Below, in pieces: positions 3,367 to 14,136 of a stretch of 64,000 nt of DNA. Below the pieces are notes generated by a model. That model was given only the letters and a program-made list of their open reading frames with translations. It ran no database searches and was not told the DNA's origin. Every line of letters begins with the position of its first letter. The stretch's first letter is position 1. The DNA is taken from assembly GCA_011389765.1 (NCBI GenBank), contig JAABTT010000007.1, positions 1 through 64,000 on the forward strand, written 5' to 3'. This DNA comes from Desulfohalobiaceae bacterium S24. Its GTDB lineage: Bacteria; Desulfobacterota; Desulfovibrionia; Desulfovibrionales; Desulfothermaceae. The translations under genes and the position numbers were made by a program.

Positions 3367-5502
3367 TCAAATTTGCCCGATGTGCGTTTCCGGCAGCAGG
3401 ACGGTTTCCACTATATCCCTGACGTCCTGCACGCAAAAAACTGTCAAATCACGAAGCACATACTCCGGGATCTGCTTCAGGTCCGATTCATTCTTGGCCG
3501 GGAAGACCACCGTCGATACGCCGGAATTCCTGGCAGCCAGCAATTTTTCCCTTATGCCGGACACAGGCAGCACCCGTCCACTCAGGGTCAATTCCCCGCT
3601 GAAGGCCACATCTCTCTTGCAGGCCCGCGACGTGAGCAGAGAAAGCAGGGCCACAGCTATAGTCAAGCCGGCGGAAGGACCGTCCTTGGGGATAGCCCCG
3701 GATGGAACGTGGATATGAATATCTCCGGCGCTGAAAAAATCATCGGCCACCTTAAATAGACCTGTATTGCTCCTGATATAGCTCAATGCCGCCTGTGCAG
3801 ATTCTTTAAGAATGTCGCCAAGGGAACCGGTCAGCAGGAGCTTGCCTGTTCCCGGCATCATGGTGGCTTCCACAAACATGATCTCCCCGCCATACGGAGT
3901 CCAGGCCAGGCCGGTAGCCACCCCGATACGATCTTTGGCCGCAAGCACTTCGGAATAATAGTGCTCCTGCCCGAGCAGTTCTTCAACGACTTCCGGCGTA
4001 ATATGGATGGCCTTCCGGGCTATTTCCTGATTTTGCAGGATGTTTCGGGCGGTTTTGCGGCAGATGGAGGCAATCTGCCGCTGCAGGTTGCGCAGACCGG
4101 CTTCTCTGGTATAGCCGCGAATGATCTTCTGAACAGCCTCCCGCGTCAAACGCAGATCATATTCCTGCAGGGAAGCCTGGGCTTTTTCCCGAGGCAGCAG
4201 ATAATCAAAGACAATACGTTCCTTCTCTTCAATGGTGTAGCCGGAGAGGCGGATGAGTTCCAGCCGGTCAAGCAATGGCGCGGGAATGGTTTCCGTGGTG
4301 TTGGCCGTGACAATGAACATCACTTTGGACAGATCAAAGGGCACTTCCAAATAATGGTCTGCAAACGCACTGTTCTGTTCCGGGTCCAGGATCTCCAGGA
4401 GTGCGGCTGCCGGATCTCCTTTGAAATCCTGACCGAGCTTGTCGATCTCATCGAGCATGAACACCGGGTTTTTAGTTCCAACCTTTTTGATCTCTTGAAC
4501 AATCCTACCGGGAAGCGATCCCACATAGCTTCGCCGGTGTCCGCGGAGCTGGGACTCATCATTGATCCCGGCCAGGGACATTCGTATGAATTTTCGCTCC
4601 AGTGCTCTGGCAATGGACAGACCCAGAGAGGTCTTGCCGGTTCCCGGCGGTCCGACAAAACACAAGATCGGCCCCTGGAGATCCAGCTTGTTCTTTTTTC
4701 TGGACAGGGCCTGGGCCACGGTCGTCCTGACTTCTTCCAACTGGAAGGGCTTGCTTAAAAATTGAAAAGAGCCCTTTTGAATAGCGTCTACAGCCACAGA
4801 AACCGTGGCATAGCCGGTCATGACGATCACTTCCGTATTCGGATCGATCCGTTTGGCTTCCTGGAGAAGCTGCAGCCCGTCGATGGTTTTCATTTTCAAA
4901 TCCGTCAGCACCAGGTCGAATTTGGCCTGCATGATCAGATCCAGGGCCTGCTCTCCGCTATCGGCCTCGACTACGCCGTAGCCTTCTTTTTTCAAAACAT
5001 GAGCCAAAGCTTTGCAGGTTTTGAGTTCGTCGTCGACGATCAAGATCTGGGCCTTTCGGGTATGCTTCAAAATGCGGACGGACAAATGCTCCAGGATGCG
5101 GTCCTTGATTTCCGGCAACCCAAAATGCTCCTGGTCGAGAACAGTCTGAGCGTGCCCAATATCCAGATTATCCTGGGTCATGGAAGTCCAGGGCAGTTGC
5201 AGCAGGTATTGGAGGTGGTTTTTGCTGATGGTGTATTCGGCAGAGCCAAGAGACATATTCTGCATCCGGACCAGTTCTTTGCCTGCAAAATCTCGCACTT
5301 CTTCCGGGAGATCCGACCGGGCGACAGATTCCTGAAGTTCTTCCAGATCTGCATGCGCCTCGGGTGTGTCCTCTTTTGCTTTTTTGAATAACTGCATGGT
5401 CTGAACTCGAATTTGAGGTTCGGGCGTTGTAAAACCGAGCTTCCCCTGAGTGAAGCGATGTTCTGCGGAATAAGGATGCTGATGCGGGATATCTTTCCCC
5501 AA
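3367..5502 (-). CDS. Lon-family ATP-dependent protease with a response-regulator receiver domain inserted before the AAA+ module; N-terminal LON domain mostly missing
   Basis: REC: QILIVDDE...DLVLTDLK...MTGYA...LSKPF; AAA+: GPPGTGKTS, MLDEIDKLG; Lon protease: PKDGPSAG plus GIREK. Listed start is TTG; ATG at 5397 (MQLFKKAKED) is an alternative. Confidence 0.93.
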   Translation of the reverse strand: MGKDIPHQHPYSAEHRFTQGKLGFTTPEPQIRVQTMQLFKKAKEDTPEAHADLEELQESVARSDLPEEVRDFAGKELVRMQNMSLGSAEYTISKNHLQYLLQLPWTSMTQDNLDIGHAQTVLDQEHFGLPEIKDRILEHLSVRILKHTRKAQILIVDDELKTCKALAHVLKKEGYGVVEADSGEQALDLIMQAKFDLVLTDLKMKTIDGLQLLQEAKRIDPNTEVIVMTGYATVSVAVDAIQKGSFQFLSKPFQLEEVRTTVAQALSRKKNKLDLQGPILCFVGPPGTGKTSLGLSIARALERKFIRMSLAGINDESQLRGHRRSYVGSLPGRIVQEIKKVGTKNPVFMLDEIDKLGQDFKGDPAAALLEILDPEQNSAFADHYLEVPFDLSKVMFIVTANTTETIPAPLLDRLELIRLSGYTIEEKERIVFDYLLPREKAQASLQEYDLRLTREAVQKIIRGYTREAGLRNLQRQIASICRKTARNILQNQEIARKAIHITPEVVEELLGQEHYYSEVLAAKDRIGVATGLAWTPYGGEIMFVEATMMPGTGKLLLTGSLGDILKESAQAALSYIRSNTGLFKVADDFFSAGDIHIHVPSGAIPKDGPSAGLTIAVALLSLLTSRACKRDVAFSGELTLSGRVLPVSGIREKLLAARNSGVSTVVFPAKNESDLKQIPEYVLRDLTVFCVQDVRDIVETVLLPETHIGQI

Positions 5503-5603: not shown

Positions 5604-5701
5604 TTGCAAAAAGCAACACCGGGATACAATGTGCAACAAACTTCGAATGCAGATATCATGCCCCCTTTTCGAGCCGCATTGATATATGTTGCACATTGCA
5701 A
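5604..5701. promoter_or_regulatory. Putative enhancer-binding sites TTGC-N5-GCAA (5604-5616, 5689-5701) plus a degenerate copy (5624-5638)
   Basis: TATTGCAAAAAGCAACA, ATACAATGTGCAACA (reverse complement TGTTGCACATTGTAT) and TGTTGCACATTGCAATG between divergent genes. Confidence 0.55.
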
Positions 5702-5766: not shown

Positions 5767-5783
5767 TTGGCACGAAGCATGCA
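5767..5783 (+). promoter_or_regulatory. Putative sigma-54 (-24/-12) promoter
   Basis: TTGGCACGAAGCATGCA: GG-N10-GC spacing, one mismatch to TGGCAC-N5-TTGC; about 54 bp before ATG 5837. Confidence 0.65.
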
Positions 5784-5836: not shown

Positions 5837-6019
5837 ATGAACAAAATCTGGGAAAAACTGGAAACCATGGCCCTGGCAGTGGCTTTTGCCGAGGCTGGCG
5901 ACCATGAAAACGCACGCCTGTATTTACAATCAGGAGTGAAAGGAAAAATGAGAAACCTCAAGCTGGAAAAACGGCAGGAACAGCAGTTGAGCCAACAGCA
6001 ACAGGATCTCAGACTTTAG
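5837..6019 (+). CDS. Short protein with 'AFAEAG' helix motif
   Basis: Start ATG 5837 with GGAG SD; KLETMALAVAFAEAGDHENARLYLQ resembles motifs in the next two proteins. Confidence 0.7.
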   Translation: MNKIWEKLETMALAVAFAEAGDHENARLYLQSGVKGKMRNLKLEKRQEQQLSQQQQDLRL

Positions 6020-6054
6020 GGACCACCGGACAGGAACGAGGCAGAGGTATTCTT

Positions 6055-6585
6055 ATGAAAACGGTTCTTTTTGCCACTGACGATATTCAGCCCGGAAAGC
6101 GTCTCTTTGACTATGCCCTGCAGTTCTGTTGCAAAATGAAAGCTGAATTGATCATTTTACAGATTCTTCACCCCCGGACCTATCAGGGCATTGTACAAAC
6201 ACTCAAAAACGGACTCGAAAAAACACAGAGCAGGATTGAGAGCGCTTTGACCGCCGCAACCCTGGCTGAAGCCGGAGAACCGGAATCGGCCAGAGCGGTG
6301 CTGCGGGCAGGCAAACAGAACATCGCCAGGCTTTTGCCCGAACCTGACGAGGCCTGCCTGCTGCGCTGCATCGAACAGAAAATCGGGGAGCCTGATCAGG
6401 AAATATATGCCTATCTCCAGGCCAATCCCGGCATTGTCCTGACCTTCTATGACGGCACCCGGGGCAGATCCCAAAAAGAGAACAGGCAGGGTGGTTTCAA
6501 GCTCTGGGAGCGAATCCCGGCGGAATTGGGGATTCCCTGCGTGATGCGTCCGGAATCGAAAATCAAGACCTGCTCTGAATCGTGA
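6055..6585 (+). CDS. UspA-like protein with inserted 'LAEAG' motif
   Basis: MKTVLFATDDIQPGKRLFDYALQFCCKMKAELIILQIL (Usp-like beta1-alpha1); RIESALTAATLAEAGEPESARAVL. Confidence 0.65.
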   Translation: MKTVLFATDDIQPGKRLFDYALQFCCKMKAELIILQILHPRTYQGIVQTLKNGLEKTQSRIESALTAATLAEAGEPESARAVLRAGKQNIARLLPEPDEACLLRCIEQKIGEPDQEIYAYLQANPGIVLTFYDGTRGRSQKENRQGGFKLWERIPAELGIPCVMRPESKIKTCSES

Positions 6586-6600
6586 AAACAAGGATTCCCT

Positions 6601-7164
6601 ATGAAATTCATCCAAAAATTCAAATCCAAGCAGCAACAGGCCGTCCAAAGGATTGACCAGTACCAGGAAGCCATCAGCTTCGCGCAGGCAGGAGCAGCCA
6701 ATGAAGCCCTAAAAGCACTCCGGGTCAAACAGGCTTCCCCTGAACAGCAAAGCAGCAAACTGCTCGTGCTGGCCCAGGGAGATCATTTTCCGGCCGATAT
6801 ACGGGAGTATGCCCTTGAGATGGCCCAAAGGCTGGGATATGAGATTCTGGCTCTGAATACCGCCCCGGTGAAGAAGGAAGCCTGGCGATTTTTTAATCTG
6901 GAGGGAAAAAAACTTCGCCAGGAATTCAAAGCCGCCTCTTTGGAAAATTTTACCGTATTTCAACAGGAGGCGGAGGAACGAAAGATTCCCATCACCCATT
7001 ATGTAAAATTCATGGATAAAGAGGAAGCCCTTCAAGAACTGCGGCAGGAAGTCAAGGACCTCGATTTTATCATCTCGGATGCTGAGCCGCTCCAACCGAG
7101 ACCTCAGGATGAACAAGCCCTGAATCGCCCCCAACGGGAAATGTGTGTTTACTCATTGACCTGA
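6601..7164 (+). CDS. UspA-like protein with N-terminal 'FAQAG' motif
   Basis: RIDQYQEAISFAQAGAANEALKALR followed by KLLVLAQGDHFPADIREYALEMAQRLGYEILALNTAP. Confidence 0.6.
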   Translation: MKFIQKFKSKQQQAVQRIDQYQEAISFAQAGAANEALKALRVKQASPEQQSSKLLVLAQGDHFPADIREYALEMAQRLGYEILALNTAPVKKEAWRFFNLEGKKLRQEFKAASLENFTVFQQEAEERKIPITHYVKFMDKEEALQELRQEVKDLDFIISDAEPLQPRPQDEQALNRPQREMCVYSLT

Positions 7165-7225
7165 GAGTCGATGCCATATTTGGGATTGCCAATTGCCCAT
7201 TTTCGAATTGAAGACAAGGGGAAAA

Positions 7226-7318
7226 ATGAGTATGGACCTCATCTTTTATCTCGACCTGCTGCTGATTGGTTTCGCTTTTTTTTTGTGCTTCTGGTTTCGC
7301 AAGGAAAACAAAAAGTAG
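7226..7318 (+). CDS. 30-aa single-TM microprotein (not in ORF track)
   Basis: Manual translation MSMDLIFYLDLLLIGFAFFLCFWFRKENKK*, preceded by AAGGGG; hydrophobic helix with basic C-terminus. Confidence 0.6.
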   Translation: MSMDLIFYLDLLLIGFAFFLCFWFRKENKK

Positions 7319-7420
7319 CCCTGGGACTCGGCCCTGAAATCCGGTATCACCGGATCCTGATCTGATAGTTTTTTAAGAAAATGTTTTGGAAATCGCAATT
7401 CGAAAATTGAAAATTCTCTG

Positions 7421-7461
7421 AAAACCCTGCTTGTTCAGCCCAGATTCAAGCAGGGTTTTTT
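7421..7461 (+). terminator. Rho-independent terminator
   Basis: AAAACCCTGCTTG ... CAAGCAGGGTTTTTT. Confidence 0.8.
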
Positions 7462-7500
7462 CAGGAGCAGCCTACAAAATCCAAACATGAAGGACAGGAT

Positions 7501-9312
7501 ATGACCCCTGACATGATTCTCACCGTGACTGTTCTTTGTTTTGTCATTGTACTCTTTGTCTTTGAATGGGTCCGGGTGGATGTGGTGGGCATCCTGATGA
7601 TGGTCCTGCTGCCGCTGCTGGGCCTGGTGACCGGCAAGGAGGCCTTCAGCGGATTGAGCAGCAACGCGGTCTGCTCCATCATAGCGGTGATCATCATCGG
7701 CGCCGGACTGGACAAAACCGGCGTCATGAATCAGGTCGCCTCTCCCATCATCAAATTGGCCGGGAAAAGTGAAAAGCGAATCATTGCCTTGATAGGCGGC
7801 ACAGTGGGGATCATTTCCGGCATGATGCAGAACATTGGGGCCGCGGCCCTGTTCCTGCCGGCCGTCCAGCGGATCTCCAAGAGACTCGATATTTCCAGTT
7901 CCAGGATCCTCATGCCCATGGGCTTTTGCGCCATCATCGGGGGCACTCTGACCCTGGTTGGAGCCAGTCCTACGATCCTGCTCAATGACCTGATGGTCCT
8001 GCAGGGAGAGAAACTCGAGCCCTTTGGCTTGTTCACCCAGACCCCCATCGGATTCTGCCTGCTGGCCACGGCCATCGTCTATTTCGCCCTGTTTGGAAAG
8101 CTCATTCTTCCGGCCGGCAGGGGCAAGGCGGACAAAGGGGCCTCGGATCTGCTCCTGGAAAACTATAAAGGGGTGGAAAACATCCTTGAACTCCACATCC
8201 CGAATGATTTTCACGGACCACGCACCCTGGAGGAGCTGGCCATCAGGGAGAAATTTCTGGTCACCGTGGTCGCTCTGCATCAGGCCGCAAAAAAGGAAAA
8301 AACCTTTGTCCTCCACAGCAGCGATCAGCTCAATCCAGGCGATGATCTGGCGGTGGTTGGACGTCGAGCCAATGTCAGCCAGCTGGCCAGGGAAATGGGA
8401 TGGACCTTGAAAGAATCCCTGGAGGTGTTTTCCGAAAGCCTGGCCCGAACCAATGCCGGGCTGGCGGAAACGATTGTCTCCCCGCGTTCGGAACTCGTGG
8501 GCCAGACCCTGTCGGAGGTCAGCTTCAAGGAACTCTTCGGGCTCAATCCCGTGGCTCTGCTCAAGGGAAACAAGATCTTTTACAGCGGGCTGACCCGCCT
8601 TCGGCTGGAGATGGGGGACACCCTCCTGCTCCAGGGGCCCTGGGCTCGATTTCATATCTTGAAAAATCGACCTCAACCCAGCACCCTGACCTTCAGCACG
8701 CCCTTGGAAGGCGAAATCCTGCGCCCTGAAAAATCCAAGCAGGCCCTTTTCTGGCTGGGCCTGGCCCTGTTTCAGATTATTTTTTTCAAGGTTCAGCTCT
8801 CCGTGGCCTTGATGTCCGGGGCCCTGGGCATGATCATCACCGGCGTGCTGTCCATTGACGAGGCCTATAGGGCCGTGGACTGGATGACGGTCTTCCTGCT
8901 GGCCGGTCTCATCCCGCTGGGGATTGCCTTTGAAAAAACCGGGACGGCCGCCTTTATCGCTGAAAACATCCTGACCCTTCTCGGAGATCCCTCCCCTATC
9001 CTGCTCCTGGCGGTCGTCGGTTTGTTGACCTCCTTTTTTACCCTGGTCATCTCCAATGTCGGGGCCACCGTCCTTCTGGTTCCTTTGTGCATGAACCTGA
9101 CGCTCATGGCCGGGGGGGATCCCAGGATGGCCGCACTGGTTGTCGGATTGTCCGCCTCGAATACCTTTGTTCTTCCCACGCATCAGGTCAACGCCCTGAT
9201 CATGCGGCCTGGAGGCTACCGGACCATGGATTATGCCAAGGCCGGAGCGGTCATGACCGTTTTGTTTCTGAGTGTTGAACTGACCGTGCTTTATTTCTTC
9301 TACGGAATCTGA
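7501..9312 (+). CDS. SLC13 (DASS)-family permease with two RCK_C (TrkA-C) domains
   Basis: Polytopic halves flanking two RCK_C-like segments (ELAIREKFLVTVVALHQ...; SELVGQTLSEVSFKELFGLNPVAL...); GASPTILLNDLMVL. Confidence 0.85.
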   Translation: MTPDMILTVTVLCFVIVLFVFEWVRVDVVGILMMVLLPLLGLVTGKEAFSGLSSNAVCSIIAVIIIGAGLDKTGVMNQVASPIIKLAGKSEKRIIALIGGTVGIISGMMQNIGAAALFLPAVQRISKRLDISSSRILMPMGFCAIIGGTLTLVGASPTILLNDLMVLQGEKLEPFGLFTQTPIGFCLLATAIVYFALFGKLILPAGRGKADKGASDLLLENYKGVENILELHIPNDFHGPRTLEELAIREKFLVTVVALHQAAKKEKTFVLHSSDQLNPGDDLAVVGRRANVSQLAREMGWTLKESLEVFSESLARTNAGLAETIVSPRSELVGQTLSEVSFKELFGLNPVALLKGNKIFYSGLTRLRLEMGDTLLLQGPWARFHILKNRPQPSTLTFSTPLEGEILRPEKSKQALFWLGLALFQIIFFKVQLSVALMSGALGMIITGVLSIDEAYRAVDWMTVFLLAGLIPLGIAFEKTGTAAFIAENILTLLGDPSPILLLAVVGLLTSFFTLVISNVGATVLLVPLCMNLTLMAGGDPRMAALVVGLSASNTFVLPTHQVNALIMRPGGYRTMDYAKAGAVMTVLFLSVELTVLYFFYGI

Positions 9313-9337
9313 AATTCGGCATGCCGAATTTCAGATT
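9306..9337. repeat. Perfect 32-bp palindrome overlapping permease stop codon
   Basis: AATCTGAAATTCGGCA/TGCCGAATTTCAGATT. Confidence 0.95.
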
Positions 9338-9349
9338 ATGGAGAGTTTT

Positions 9350-10201
9350 ATGGCGATCATCACCATATCCAGAGGTTGCTGCAGCCGCGGGCAAATCATC
9401 GCCCAAGCCGTTGCCCGGCAACTCAATTACACCTGCCAGGATCGGGAGATCCTGGTGGACGCCTCACAGCTTTTCGAGGTCTCGGAGAAAAAGCTGGTCA
9501 AGTCCCTGCATGACGCCCCGGGGATTATCGAACGGGTCAAAGGAGGCAAAAGAAAATATCTGAAAATGATCCAGTCCGTTCTCCTGGCCCACGCCAGCGA
9601 AGACAACCTGGTATATTCAGGCCACGCCGGGCATTTGCTCCTGCCGCCGGTTCATCACCTGCTCAAGATCAGAATCAATGTCGACCATGAGGCCAGGGTC
9701 CGATATGTGCAGGAGCGGGAGGGGTGGAACCGGGCCAAGGCCCTGGAATTCATCAAGACCGAAGACCAACACCGGGAAAACTGGACCCGGTATCTGTACA
9801 ACCAGGATTTGAACGATCCGGCCCTGTATGATATGGTCCTGCATATTGATCACCTGAACCTTGAAGATGTCGTGGAGATCATCTGTTCCACGGCCTCCCG
9901 GAAAAGTTTCGAAACCACGGCCAAATCCCGGCAATCGATTGCAGACTATGCGGTCAAAGCCCAGGTAGAGCTGGCCCTTGACGATATCTGCGAAGTGGAA
10001 GTCAGCGCCCGAGATGGGCAGGTCGGCATACGGGTCCTGGCCCCCCGAATCCGGAAAACCAATTTCATCACCCCCAAGCTTCAGAATCACCTGGATTTGA
10101 CCTACAGGGATGAGCTGCTGCAGGAGATCCTTGAGGTGACCCGGGAAATTCCCGGGGTCAAAGGGGTTGCCTGCGATATCGATCATCTCTCCTATTCATA
10201 A
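9350..10201 (+). CDS. Cytidylate kinase-like family protein
   Basis: MAIITISRGCCSRGQIIAQAVARQLNYTCQDREIL: AAK6-like P-loop start of the cytidylate kinase-like family. Confidence 0.75.
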   Translation: MAIITISRGCCSRGQIIAQAVARQLNYTCQDREILVDASQLFEVSEKKLVKSLHDAPGIIERVKGGKRKYLKMIQSVLLAHASEDNLVYSGHAGHLLLPPVHHLLKIRINVDHEARVRYVQEREGWNRAKALEFIKTEDQHRENWTRYLYNQDLNDPALYDMVLHIDHLNLEDVVEIICSTASRKSFETTAKSRQSIADYAVKAQVELALDDICEVEVSARDGQVGIRVLAPRIRKTNFITPKLQNHLDLTYRDELLQEILEVTREIPGVKGVACDIDHLSYS

Positions 10202-10227
10202 ATTGAAAATTATAACAGGGTTCACGC

Positions 10228-11691
10228 GTGAAAATACGCATCAGCATTCGCCGCAAGATCCTGCTGACCTTTGCTCTTTTTTTTCTGGTCAGTCTCCTCC
10301 TGGCTCTCTATGGATATCACAAATACCATGTCCTGAACCAAAAGATCCGCTTGGTGGAGAACAAGGAAATCCTTTTGAATTCCATCCTGGAGGCCAGGCG
10401 ATATGAAAAAAACTTCTTCATCACCCAGGAAGGCCACCATCTTGAAAAAGCCCTGCAGTATACCGAAAAGAGCACCAAGGATCTTATCCGGCTGATTGAA
10501 GGCTTCAATGAAAAGGCCCTGCCCCGCGACATCAAGCGCCAAATGGCCATTCTCAAACAATATCAGGCCTCCCTCCGCTTCCTCCTGGAAAATGACCCGA
10601 ACAGGACAGCCTCTCCCGCCCCCTCCTCCGCAAGCCGGGCCGAGGTCCTGGAAAAAACAGACAGGATTCCCAGTCTGGGCCGGGAGCTGACCATGAGCGT
10701 GGAAGCGGCCCTGCAGCAGGAGCGCACCCAGGTCAAACATCTGGTTTTCCATTCCCGGCAGTATCTTTTTGTTTTTCTGGGACTCATTGCGCTTATTGCC
10801 TGTGTGACGTTTTTGTTCCTCATTCAAAATGTGGATAAACCCTTAAAAACCATCGAAGATGCCATCAACCGGATCGTGGTCGGAGACTACCAGGATATTC
10901 CGGAAATCCGCTCCGGCGATGAGTTTGAAAAGCTGGTGGACAGTCTGAATACCATGCTTATGGAGCTGAGCCGCCGCAATAACCAACTGCTCCAGAATGA
11001 GAAGATGGCCGCCCTGGGGACCCTGACGTCCGGAGTGGCCCATGAGCTGAACAACCCATTGAACAACATCTCCACATCCCTGCAGATCATCCTGGAAGAA
11101 ATCGAGGACGGCGATATCGGCTACCAGCGGGAACTGCTTTCCGAGTCTGAAGAAGAGGTGCGACGGGCCCAGGAAATAGTCAAGGCCCTGCTCGAGTTCT
11201 CCCGGGAGACGGAATTTTCCCTGTCCCGGGAGAATGTTGCGGGATTGGTCCGGAGCACCCTCAAGCTTATTCAGGGGGAAATCCCCAGCCGGGTCCAGGT
11301 CAGCCTGGATATCCCGGAAAAGCTGAATGCGGAAATGGATACCAGGCGCATCCAGCAGGTCCTGCTCAATCTGGTGATCAACGCCTGTCATGCCATGGAG
11401 GAATCAGGAGGGGAGTTGACAATCAAGGCCTTTGAGCGGAAAGATGGCCAGGGTTTCTTTTTACAGGTCCAGGACGCCGGACACGGGATCGGACCCGCCA
11501 AACTCTCCAAGATATTTGACCCCTTTTACACCACCAAAGAGCTGGGCAAGGGCTCCGGTCTTGGCTTGTCCGTCTCCAAAGGGATTGTTGAAAGCCATAA
11601 AGGAAACATCGAGGTCTGGAGCCGGGAAGGCCAGGGGACCGTCTTTACGGTTTTTCTCCCCTATTCTCCCCGGGAATTTCAGGCGGGGTAA
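10228..11691 (+). CDS. Membrane sensor histidine kinase (helical periplasmic domain, HAMP, HisKA, HATPase_c)
   Basis: Two TMs, GVAHELNNPLNNIS H-box, GHGIGPAKLSKIFDPFYTTK, GSGLGLSVS. Confidence 0.92.
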   Translation: MKIRISIRRKILLTFALFFLVSLLLALYGYHKYHVLNQKIRLVENKEILLNSILEARRYEKNFFITQEGHHLEKALQYTEKSTKDLIRLIEGFNEKALPRDIKRQMAILKQYQASLRFLLENDPNRTASPAPSSASRAEVLEKTDRIPSLGRELTMSVEAALQQERTQVKHLVFHSRQYLFVFLGLIALIACVTFLFLIQNVDKPLKTIEDAINRIVVGDYQDIPEIRSGDEFEKLVDSLNTMLMELSRRNNQLLQNEKMAALGTLTSGVAHELNNPLNNISTSLQIILEEIEDGDIGYQRELLSESEEEVRRAQEIVKALLEFSRETEFSLSRENVAGLVRSTLKLIQGEIPSRVQVSLDIPEKLNAEMDTRRIQQVLLNLVINACHAMEESGGELTIKAFERKDGQGFFLQVQDAGHGIGPAKLSKIFDPFYTTKELGKGSGLGLSVSKGIVESHKGNIEVWSREGQGTVFTVFLPYSPREFQAG

Positions 11692-11732
11692 TTTTCGATT
11701 GCCGATTTTCGATTTCTGATTGCCGATTTTTC
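11691..11732. repeat. Heptameric tandem repeat
   Basis: ATTTTCG ATTGCCG ATTTTCG ATTTCTG ATTGCCG ATTTTTC. Confidence 0.85.
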
Positions 11733-11752
11733 AAAATTGGGAAAAGATCCTG

Positions 11753-13153
11753 ATGGATACTCTCATGAGCCGATCCACGAACCACCCCCACAAACAATGG
11801 CAGCTGCTTCTCGTGGAAGACGAGAATCTGGCCCGCCGGAATCTCGAGCATATCCTGAAAAAAGAAGGCTATGCCGTCTTTTCCACAGACAGCGGCCCCA
11901 GGGGCGTCGAACTTCTCCAGGACCGGGAATTCGACCTTGTCTTGACCGATCTCAAGCTGAAAACAGTGGACGGGATGCAGATTCTGAAAAAAAGCAAGAC
12001 TCTGTACCCGGAAACCGAAGTGATCCTGATAACCGGCTACGCCACGGTGAACTCGGCGGTGGCGGCGATGCGGGAGGGAGCCTATTTTTATCTTTCCAAA
12101 CCCTATCAGCTCGATGAAGTCCGAAAAGTCGTTGGCGAGGCCCTGATCAAGCGCGAGCTGACCCTGGAGAATAGACGGCTCAAGGCGGATTACGGCAAGG
12201 AGCTCCCCCTTGCCGGAATCATCGGCAGGAGCCGGGCCATGACCAGGGTTCTCGATCAGGTCTCCCAAGTGTCGCCGACTGATACCAATATCCTGATATT
12301 AGGGGAAAGCGGCACCGGCAAGGAACTTATCGCCAAAGCCATCCACGCTTTGAGCCCGCGGGCCGAACATCGCTTTATGGCCTTCAACTGCGGCTCTTTT
12401 ACGGAAGAACTCATGGCCAATGAACTCTTCGGCCACGAAAAAAGCGCTTACACCGGGGCGGAAAGTCTGAAGAAGGGATTGCTGGAATCGGCGGACCAGG
12501 GAACCGTCTTACTGGACGAGATCGGCGACATGCCTCTCTCCATGCAGATCAAGCTCTTGCGGGTGATCCAGGAGAAGGAACTCCTTCGAGTGGGCGGAGT
12601 GCATCCCGTAAGCGTGGATATCCGCTTTATCGCCGCCACCCACCGGGATTTGAAGCAGGAAGTCGAAGAGGATCGCTTCCGCCAGGATCTCTACTACCGG
12701 CTCAATGTAATCACCATCAGCCTGCCCCCTCTCGTGGACAGGATTGAAGACATTCCTTTGCTGGTCAATCAATTCCTGGCCCGGAAAATGAAAGTCATAA
12801 ACAAGCAGATCCGGGAAATCGCACCGGAAACCATGGACCTGCTCATGGCCTACAGCTGGCCTGGGAATGTAAGGGAACTGGAGAACGTGATCGAACGGGC
12901 AGTGACCCTGGCCAACCAGGAAGTACTCAAACCCGAATTTTTACCCGAACATATCCAGACCCTGTCCCTGGAAACCTATCGCCGCAGTGCCTCCAAAATC
13001 CCTACCCTGGAGGAGCAGGAGATCGAATACATCAGATGGGTCTTGAAAAAATACGATGGAAACAAGACCAAAGCCGCTCAAACCATGGGCATTGACCGTG
13101 TCTCCCTCTGGCGGAAAATGAAGCGGTACCGCCTGAACGGCAGCAGCGACTGA
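11753..13153 (+). CDS. Sigma-54-dependent response regulator (REC-AAA+-Fis HTH)
   Basis: DLVLTDLK receiver; GESGTGKE; SAYTGA in place of GAFTGA; GNKTKAAQTMGIDRVSLWRKMKRY HTH. Confidence 0.93.
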   Translation: MDTLMSRSTNHPHKQWQLLLVEDENLARRNLEHILKKEGYAVFSTDSGPRGVELLQDREFDLVLTDLKLKTVDGMQILKKSKTLYPETEVILITGYATVNSAVAAMREGAYFYLSKPYQLDEVRKVVGEALIKRELTLENRRLKADYGKELPLAGIIGRSRAMTRVLDQVSQVSPTDTNILILGESGTGKELIAKAIHALSPRAEHRFMAFNCGSFTEELMANELFGHEKSAYTGAESLKKGLLESADQGTVLLDEIGDMPLSMQIKLLRVIQEKELLRVGGVHPVSVDIRFIAATHRDLKQEVEEDRFRQDLYYRLNVITISLPPLVDRIEDIPLLVNQFLARKMKVINKQIREIAPETMDLLMAYSWPGNVRELENVIERAVTLANQEVLKPEFLPEHIQTLSLETYRRSASKIPTLEEQEIEYIRWVLKKYDGNKTKAAQTMGIDRVSLWRKMKRYRLNGSSD

Positions 13154-13809: not shown

Positions 13810-14136
13810 ATGACGTTTCAATTTGGATCACTATTTGAGCAGATCCCTAAGGAGCTTCCTGACGAACTCGTCCAGAGTTTATGTTCTTCAGAACAGGTCA
13901 GAATTGAGCGGATCGTCTCCCGGGGGCAGGCTTCACCTGACGGTTGCTGGTACGATCAGGAGCAGTCAGAGTTTGTGCTGCTGGTATCAGGAAGCGCCGG
14001 TTTGCGGATCGAGGGGCATGACGATATTCTCGTCCTGAAACCGGGCGATTATCTGAACATCGAGGCCCATCTCAAGCATCGGGTCGAATGGACCGCTGCC
14101 GAATGTGATACGGTCTGGCTGGCCGTGCATTATTAA
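13810..14136 (+). CDS. Cupin domain protein
   Basis: FVLLVSGSAGLRIEGHDDILVLKPGDYLNIEAHLKHRVEWT. Confidence 0.8.
   Translation: MTFQFGSLFEQIPKELPDELVQSLCSSEQVRIERIVSRGQASPDGCWYDQEQSEFVLLVSGSAGLRIEGHDDILVLKPGDYLNIEAHLKHRVEWTAAECDTVWLAVHY

Follow-up and report, generated by a model that had tools for sequence, protein, structure and literature searches.

A predicted TPR-like hairpin module shared by three adjacent genes at a Lon-REC and universal stress protein locus of Desulfobacterota

We analyzed a 64,000-nt stretch of DNA from Desulfohalobiaceae bacterium S24, hereafter the window, in which three small genes (P1, P2 and P3) begin an operon that continues with a micropeptide, an SLC13-type transporter, a cytidylate kinase-like protein, a histidine kinase and a sigma54 regulator. 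A gene for a Lon protease with a receiver domain (Lon-REC) is divergent from this operon, and the operon block recurs in several families of the order Desulfovibrionales. The features discussed here are the following.

3367-5502, minus strand: Lon-REC, a Lon AAA+/protease that carries a receiver domain and lacks a Lon N-terminal domain (Pfam); DVU3303 counterpart
5627-5698, plus strand: perfect 12-nt inverted repeat CAATGTGCAACA...TGTTGCACATTG upstream of P1; likely an activator site
5768-5783, plus strand: sigma54-type promoter TGGCACGAAGCATGCA, exact, sole match with at most one mismatch in the 64 kb
5837-6019, plus strand: P1, 60-aa stand-alone module protein, first operon gene, in the ortholog position of D. 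vulgaris DVU3302
5855-5926, plus strand: module copy of P1, KLETMALAVAFAEAGDHENARLYL, P1 residues 7-30 (HMM E = 3.7e-10, profile from other loci only)
6055-6585, plus strand: P2, Usp-like, module within the fold (Pfam Usp at residues 1-85, E = 7e-5, 23.8 bits, under the cut-off of 24)
6232-6303, plus strand: module copy of P2, RIESALTAATLAEAGEPESARAVL, P2 residues 60-83 (HMM E = 1.6e-8, profile from other loci only)
6601-7164, plus strand: P3, predicted divergent Usp-fold protein with an N-terminal module (AF2, Foldseek); orthologs across the order
6649-6720, plus strand: module copy of P3, RIDQYQEAISFAQAGAANEALKAL, P3 residues 17-40; most conserved part of the P3 family, divergent in the window
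7226-7318, plus strand: single-TM micropeptide of 30 aa, MSMDLIFYLDLLLIGFAFFLCFWFRKENKK, between P3 and the transporter, absent from the ORF list; SD AAGGGG
7501-9312, plus strand: SLC13-type anion transporter with TrkA_C domains (Pfam CitMHS, E = 9.5e-76; TrkA_C), conserved in 13 loci
9338-10201, plus strand: cytidylate-kinase-like protein (Pfam Cytidylate_kin2, E = 1e-34)
10228-11691, plus strand: histidine kinase (Pfam HAMP/HisKA/HATPase), DVU3304 counterpart by context
11720-13153, plus strand: sigma54-dependent response regulator (Pfam Response_reg, Sigma54_activat, HTH_8), DVU3305 counterpart by context

The combination of Lon-REC, a kinase, a sigma54 regulator, Usp genes and an anion transporter at one locus is that of DVU3298-DVU3305, and judging by gene content the window locus corresponds to this known D. 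vulgaris system. In the portions of the published accounts available to us, DVU3298-DVU3305 is described as a "three-component" general stress system (PMC3333781, PMC4641369) with both operons regulated by DVU3305 (PMC3333781, PMC4641369, PMC10102598). Its three regulators have common fitness profiles and its transporter, DVU3299, is important under chlorate (PMC10102598). The same portions of these three papers make no mention of the module that we describe here.

Several other features of the locus are worth recording. The inverted repeat is conserved: TGCAACA/TGTTGC elements are found about 130-250 nt 5' of P1 in most Lon-REC loci. Peptides resembling the micropeptide occupy the same position in eight other SLC13-type loci (L021, L022, L023, L024, L139, L141, L143 and L156), with a consensus of about F...LCFxFRxENKK, and the micropeptide is perhaps a small subunit of the transporter. 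At L025 (G010:C2), which belongs to a low-completeness genome, nearly every gene of the locus contains stop codons or frameshifts, reflecting either decay or poor assembly. Lastly, positions 13810-14136 of the window (plus strand) encode a stand-alone cupin that resembles the cupin half of Nif11-domain/cupin proteins and matches NCBIfam TIGR03890 at 9.9e-24, under the cut-off of that model.

P1 is small, and we find that it is a real gene: it is preceded by the Shine-Dalgarno sequence AGGAG, its orthologs stand beside nearly every P3, and its dN lies well below dS, a signature of purifying selection. A preliminary description of this DNA, made by eye, had called P1 a motif followed by a charged, Gln-rich tail; P1 is indeed a stand-alone module, but the Gln-rich tail is peculiar to the window, the orthologs having basic, R-P-rich tails. 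The same description placed the motif inside a Usp-like domain in P2 and ahead of one in P3, and both placements agree with our data. In P2, the module falls within the region matched by Pfam Usp, just under the cut-off of that family. P3 has no match to Pfam Usp, and its sequence has none in the PDB. The core of its AF2 model, however, is mostly at pLDDT 72-95, and nearly all of the best Foldseek matches of the model are Usp proteins (best E = 7e-4, TMq about 0.4); as modeled, the P3 core has a Usp fold. The module of P3 appears in the model as a low-confidence single helix in which the hairpin is not resolved.

The segments of P1, P2 and P3 align without gaps, exactly as first reported. Given that alanine-rich helices are frequent, such a likeness could in principle be due to chance. 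To address homology we used profiles that exclude one another, built from P3 orthologs alone, from P1 orthologs alone, or from other loci alone. The HMM of P3 orthologs, with P1 and P2 left out, matches window P1 (E = 6.4e-5) and window P2 (E = 3.2e-5, in two stretches, one of them the module). Conversely, in other genomes the P1-ortholog HMM picks up P2 and P3 proteins, matching them at the module (E = 6e-8 to 6e-6), and a genome-wide search with it retrieves P2 and P3 proteins at 1.4e-5 to 2.5e-5. When the profile from other loci was run against all 655 ORFs of the window, P1 (3.7e-10), P2 (1.6e-8) and P3 (0.18) ranked first, second and third, and no shuffled sequence reached the score of P1 or P2. 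The window P3 taken by itself is only weakly linked, since 15 of 20,000 P3 shuffles score at least as high with this profile; its orthologs reach 1.6e-5, and of the nine columns that are invariant in the P3 family, four (E23, A24, A28 and G31) fall within the module. A broader profile of 60 copies includes sequences from the window, and for that reason its E-values there were not used as proof.

Of the 298 Desulfobacterota genomes searched with the 60-copy profile, 39 carry the module. The copies are strongly clustered: 107 of the 132 copies in these 39 genomes lie less than 3 kb from another, where random placement predicts fewer than one, although in 25 of 64 clusters a single copy was detected. 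In the genome of the window (G000), the six copies form two runs of three adjacent genes, the second of which is on contig C1 at 88361-89557 (L137). Together, the independent profiles, the shuffles, the conservation in orthologs and this clustering leave chance likeness next to no credibility, the weak score of window P3 notwithstanding; for P1 and P2, it is refuted at the thresholds applied. We conclude from these comparisons of sequence that the segment of about 30 residues in P1, P2 and P3 is a homologous module, as the preliminary description had supposed.

The module occurs in a variety of architectures. It is found as a stand-alone protein, in tandems of two to five, N-terminal to Usp, inside Usp, C-terminal to a receiver domain (REC), and fused to a two-TM domain, the last in two loci (L165 and L171). 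Loci encode two to four copies together, and the neighbors of module genes are SLC13 or TauE/SafE transporters, a kinase and a sigma54 activator. In the L137 run, two of the three genes encode proteins in which a receiver domain is followed by the module. This locus (6353-10857; C1:88352-92856 of the same genome) is a second, REC-type module system, comprising a small module protein, two REC-module proteins, a CBS protein, an SLC13-type transporter and further REC proteins, with a dCache kinase and a PAS-sigma54 activator upstream. In REC-type loci, tandem-module proteins carry another conserved C-terminal motif, roughly FLEDVGLxxVPVxYGxxxx (L138, L139, L140, L142, L145, L147, L160, L166 and others). 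No Pfam or NCBIfam model covers the module at threshold, its profile has no significant match among PDB sequences, and a literature search for motif strings (FAEAGE and the like) returned no occurrence. As far as these libraries and the literature searched show, the module is undescribed.

To infer what kind of structure the module may form, we compared it with known folds. In the AF2 model of P1, a helix at residues 3-19 is followed by a turn and a second helix at 23-31 (pLDDT 80-89). FimV TPR3 heads the Foldseek list for this model and designed TPRs and Tom20 come soon after; no match is significant. TPR families are also the only ones that recur among weak Pfam matches of the module (7 member matches versus 0 for shuffled copies). 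TPRs are helix-turn-helix repeats of about 34 residues with a small residue at position 8, an aromatic at 11, G at 15, A at 20 and a large residue at 24. The conserved columns of the module profile (12, A in 95%; 15, F in 87%; 19, G in 82%; 24, A in 98%; 28, hydrophobic in 98%) are in phase with this general pattern, and equivalents of TPR W4, A27 and P32 are absent from the profile. None of the 60 copies reaches a curated Pfam TPR cut-off, the best single-copy match being to TPR_4 (E = 0.0017), and the P1 copy scores 14.6 bits against TPR_16, for which the cut-off is 32.7. Tandem copies are spaced by a median of 35 residues; most module proteins have one copy, and arrays of three to five are confined to L161, L163 and L164. 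The module is TPR-like without being a TPR by these membership tests.

A different reading is that the module is an amphipathic helix that binds the membrane and brings its proteins there. The hydrophobic run at profile columns 10-16 and the adjoining transporter and TM genes would suit such a helix. We nevertheless consider it unlikely, since hairpin packing accounts better for the invariant columns (A, G and A) and for the second helix conserved past the turn, and the fusion of the module to a TM protein in L165 and L171 would leave a membrane-binding helix with nothing to add there.

The preliminary description had also suggested that the shared element could be an adaptor or degron recognized by Lon-REC. 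As noted there, Lon-REC lacks the usual substrate domain, having no Pfam match to the Lon N-terminal domain. Its Lon motifs are in place (GPPGTGKT at 284 and PKDGPSAG at 605), as are the Asp, Thr and Lys of the receiver, which lies at 153-262 ahead of the AAA domain. Across the 298 genomes, 21 have both the module and Lon-REC, 18 the module only, 13 Lon-REC only and 246 neither. The association is real (odds ratio 22, Fisher p = 3e-13), yet neither requires the other, and the module is found neither in every Lon-REC genome nor exclusively in these. The 18 of 39 module genomes without Lon-REC have ordinary Lon only, and several of them are complete, single-contig genomes; conversely, the module is missing from 13 of 34 Lon-REC genomes. 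In addition, no Lon-REC belongs to the REC-type module loci; at L139 the two systems stand side by side. The co-occurrence and the missing substrate domain are what a Lon-REC degron would lead one to expect, but because of these mismatches the idea is not supported: as a general role of the hairpin it is rejected by the genome table, and in any form we regard it as very improbable. The Lon-REC-only loci also bear on the module itself. Nearly all 13 keep a TauE/SafE transporter and a P3-like Usp gene. Twelve of these Usp genes could be examined: all are fused to a two-TM domain, and in their loci neither P1 nor the module is found. Such joint absence of P1 and the P3 module would be expected if the two bind each other.

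A better candidate for a degron than the hairpin is a basic C-terminal tail. P1 orthologs end in such an R-P-rich tail, of which the window P1 keeps only ...DLRL, and a two-TM protein found in related loci ends in KRPRPxLRLNA and variants, also basic. The tail of the two-TM protein is present in 20 of 20 copies beside Lon-REC versus 1 of 10 elsewhere (p = 7e-7, ignoring kinship of the genomes). The one exception comes from an incomplete genome whose congener has Lon-REC, and a tail-less copy away from Lon-REC within a Lon-REC genome serves as an internal control. For P1-like proteins, 25 of 43 beside Lon-REC have the tail versus 0 of 10 elsewhere and 33 of 1154 in the background, kinship again being ignored. 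Since both groups possess a kinase, a sigma54 regulator and a transporter, it is Lon-REC that the tail tracks and not these genes. In the Lon-REC loci without P1 (L177-L189), the Usp domain is fused to the two-TM domain and the fusion ends in a basic tail. Tentatively, then, Lon-REC may recognize the RPRPxLxA tail of P1 orthologs and the two-TM protein, and phosphorylated Lon-REC would remove them and so reset the transporter system. Weighing on the other side are the relatedness of the genomes counted, a regular expression set after the tails had been inspected, the near absence of the tail in the window's own P1, and the alternative that a basic tail serves to bind nucleic acid or the membrane.

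We return to the hairpin. It is demonstrated that the copies are homologous, conserved and clustered, that tandem copies are spaced close to the period of TPRs, and that the module is fused to Usp, REC and TM domains. From this anatomy we infer that it is most likely a docking hairpin, which would bring the Usp or REC proteins of its locus together in the vicinity of an anion transporter. In part this is the docking or oligomerization helix first suggested: a docking element on Usp, REC and TM proteins fits, but it is a two-helix hairpin and is not confined to Usp proteins. Specifically, we propose, at a probability of roughly 0.55, that the copies in P1-P3 are one mobile, solitary TPR-like hairpin and that copies on co-encoded proteins pack together. 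Because a single TPR-like hairpin leaves its stacking faces exposed, modules on different proteins of a locus could pack against each other. On this view, stand-alone and tandem module proteins would serve as a glue or scaffold by which Usp-like proteins (elsewhere, single-domain receivers) are held in a single complex close to the transporter of the locus. The location at the transporter is suggested by gene neighborhood and by the module-TM fusions in two loci, and the available accounts of TeaD-TeaABC and Rv2623-Rv1747 (PMC5549992) provide precedents for control of a transporter by a Usp. As in D. vulgaris, the histidine kinase and the sigma54 regulator most likely turn on the window operon. 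Lon-REC probably trims the system by way of a different signal, the C-terminal tail, which is carried by P1 and, in relatives, by the TM protein. A still wider proposal is a two-code assembly in Desulfobacterota, in which TPR-like hairpins join Usp, REC and TM proteins at anion transporters while a phosphorylation-gated Lon-REC singles out the membrane subunit and the stand-alone hairpin by their C-terminal RPRPxLxA tail; as a whole, this is doubtful.

The module has the look of an assembly part, as yet unnamed, that snaps onto proteins of Desulfobacterota signaling systems. A single undescribed part ties together two kinds of stress and signaling loci, Usp/Lon-REC and REC/CBS, and through it tiny proteins that resemble nothing on their own would gain a role. 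In addition, what the Lon-REC of sulfate reducers acts on becomes a directly testable question about a named tail.

How does this locus compare with known systems? DVU3298-DVU3305 and the window have in common Lon-REC, the kinase, the sigma54 regulator, Usp-type and hypothetical genes, and an anion transporter. What sets the window apart is that its kinase and regulator come after the transporter genes and that its transporter is an SLC13 protein with a micropeptide; the named Nitratidesulfovibrio and Desulfovibrio loci (L043-L049), all from the Desulfomicrobium/Desulfovibrio side, have instead TauE/SafE and the two-TM protein. Like TPRs (Pfam TPR_4, TPR_6 and TPR_16; FimV TPR3; Tom20), the module is a predicted helix-turn-helix with small, aromatic, G and A positions in phase and a tandem spacing (median 35) near 34; unlike them, it usually occurs as a single copy, has a short second helix and has no match above a Pfam cut-off. 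The P3 core, as modeled, shares its fold with universal stress proteins such as TeaD (3hgm) of the TeaABC transporter, whose genes are likewise grouped with a transporter, whereas the proteins of the P1-P3 locus carry an extra hairpin module and are divergent in sequence. Finally, in systems of the CpdR/ClpXP type, single-domain response regulators are linked to a protease. Lon-REC likewise couples a receiver domain to regulated proteolysis, but in the window the receiver is fused into Lon itself, and module-tailed REC proteins are found in other loci, without Lon-REC.
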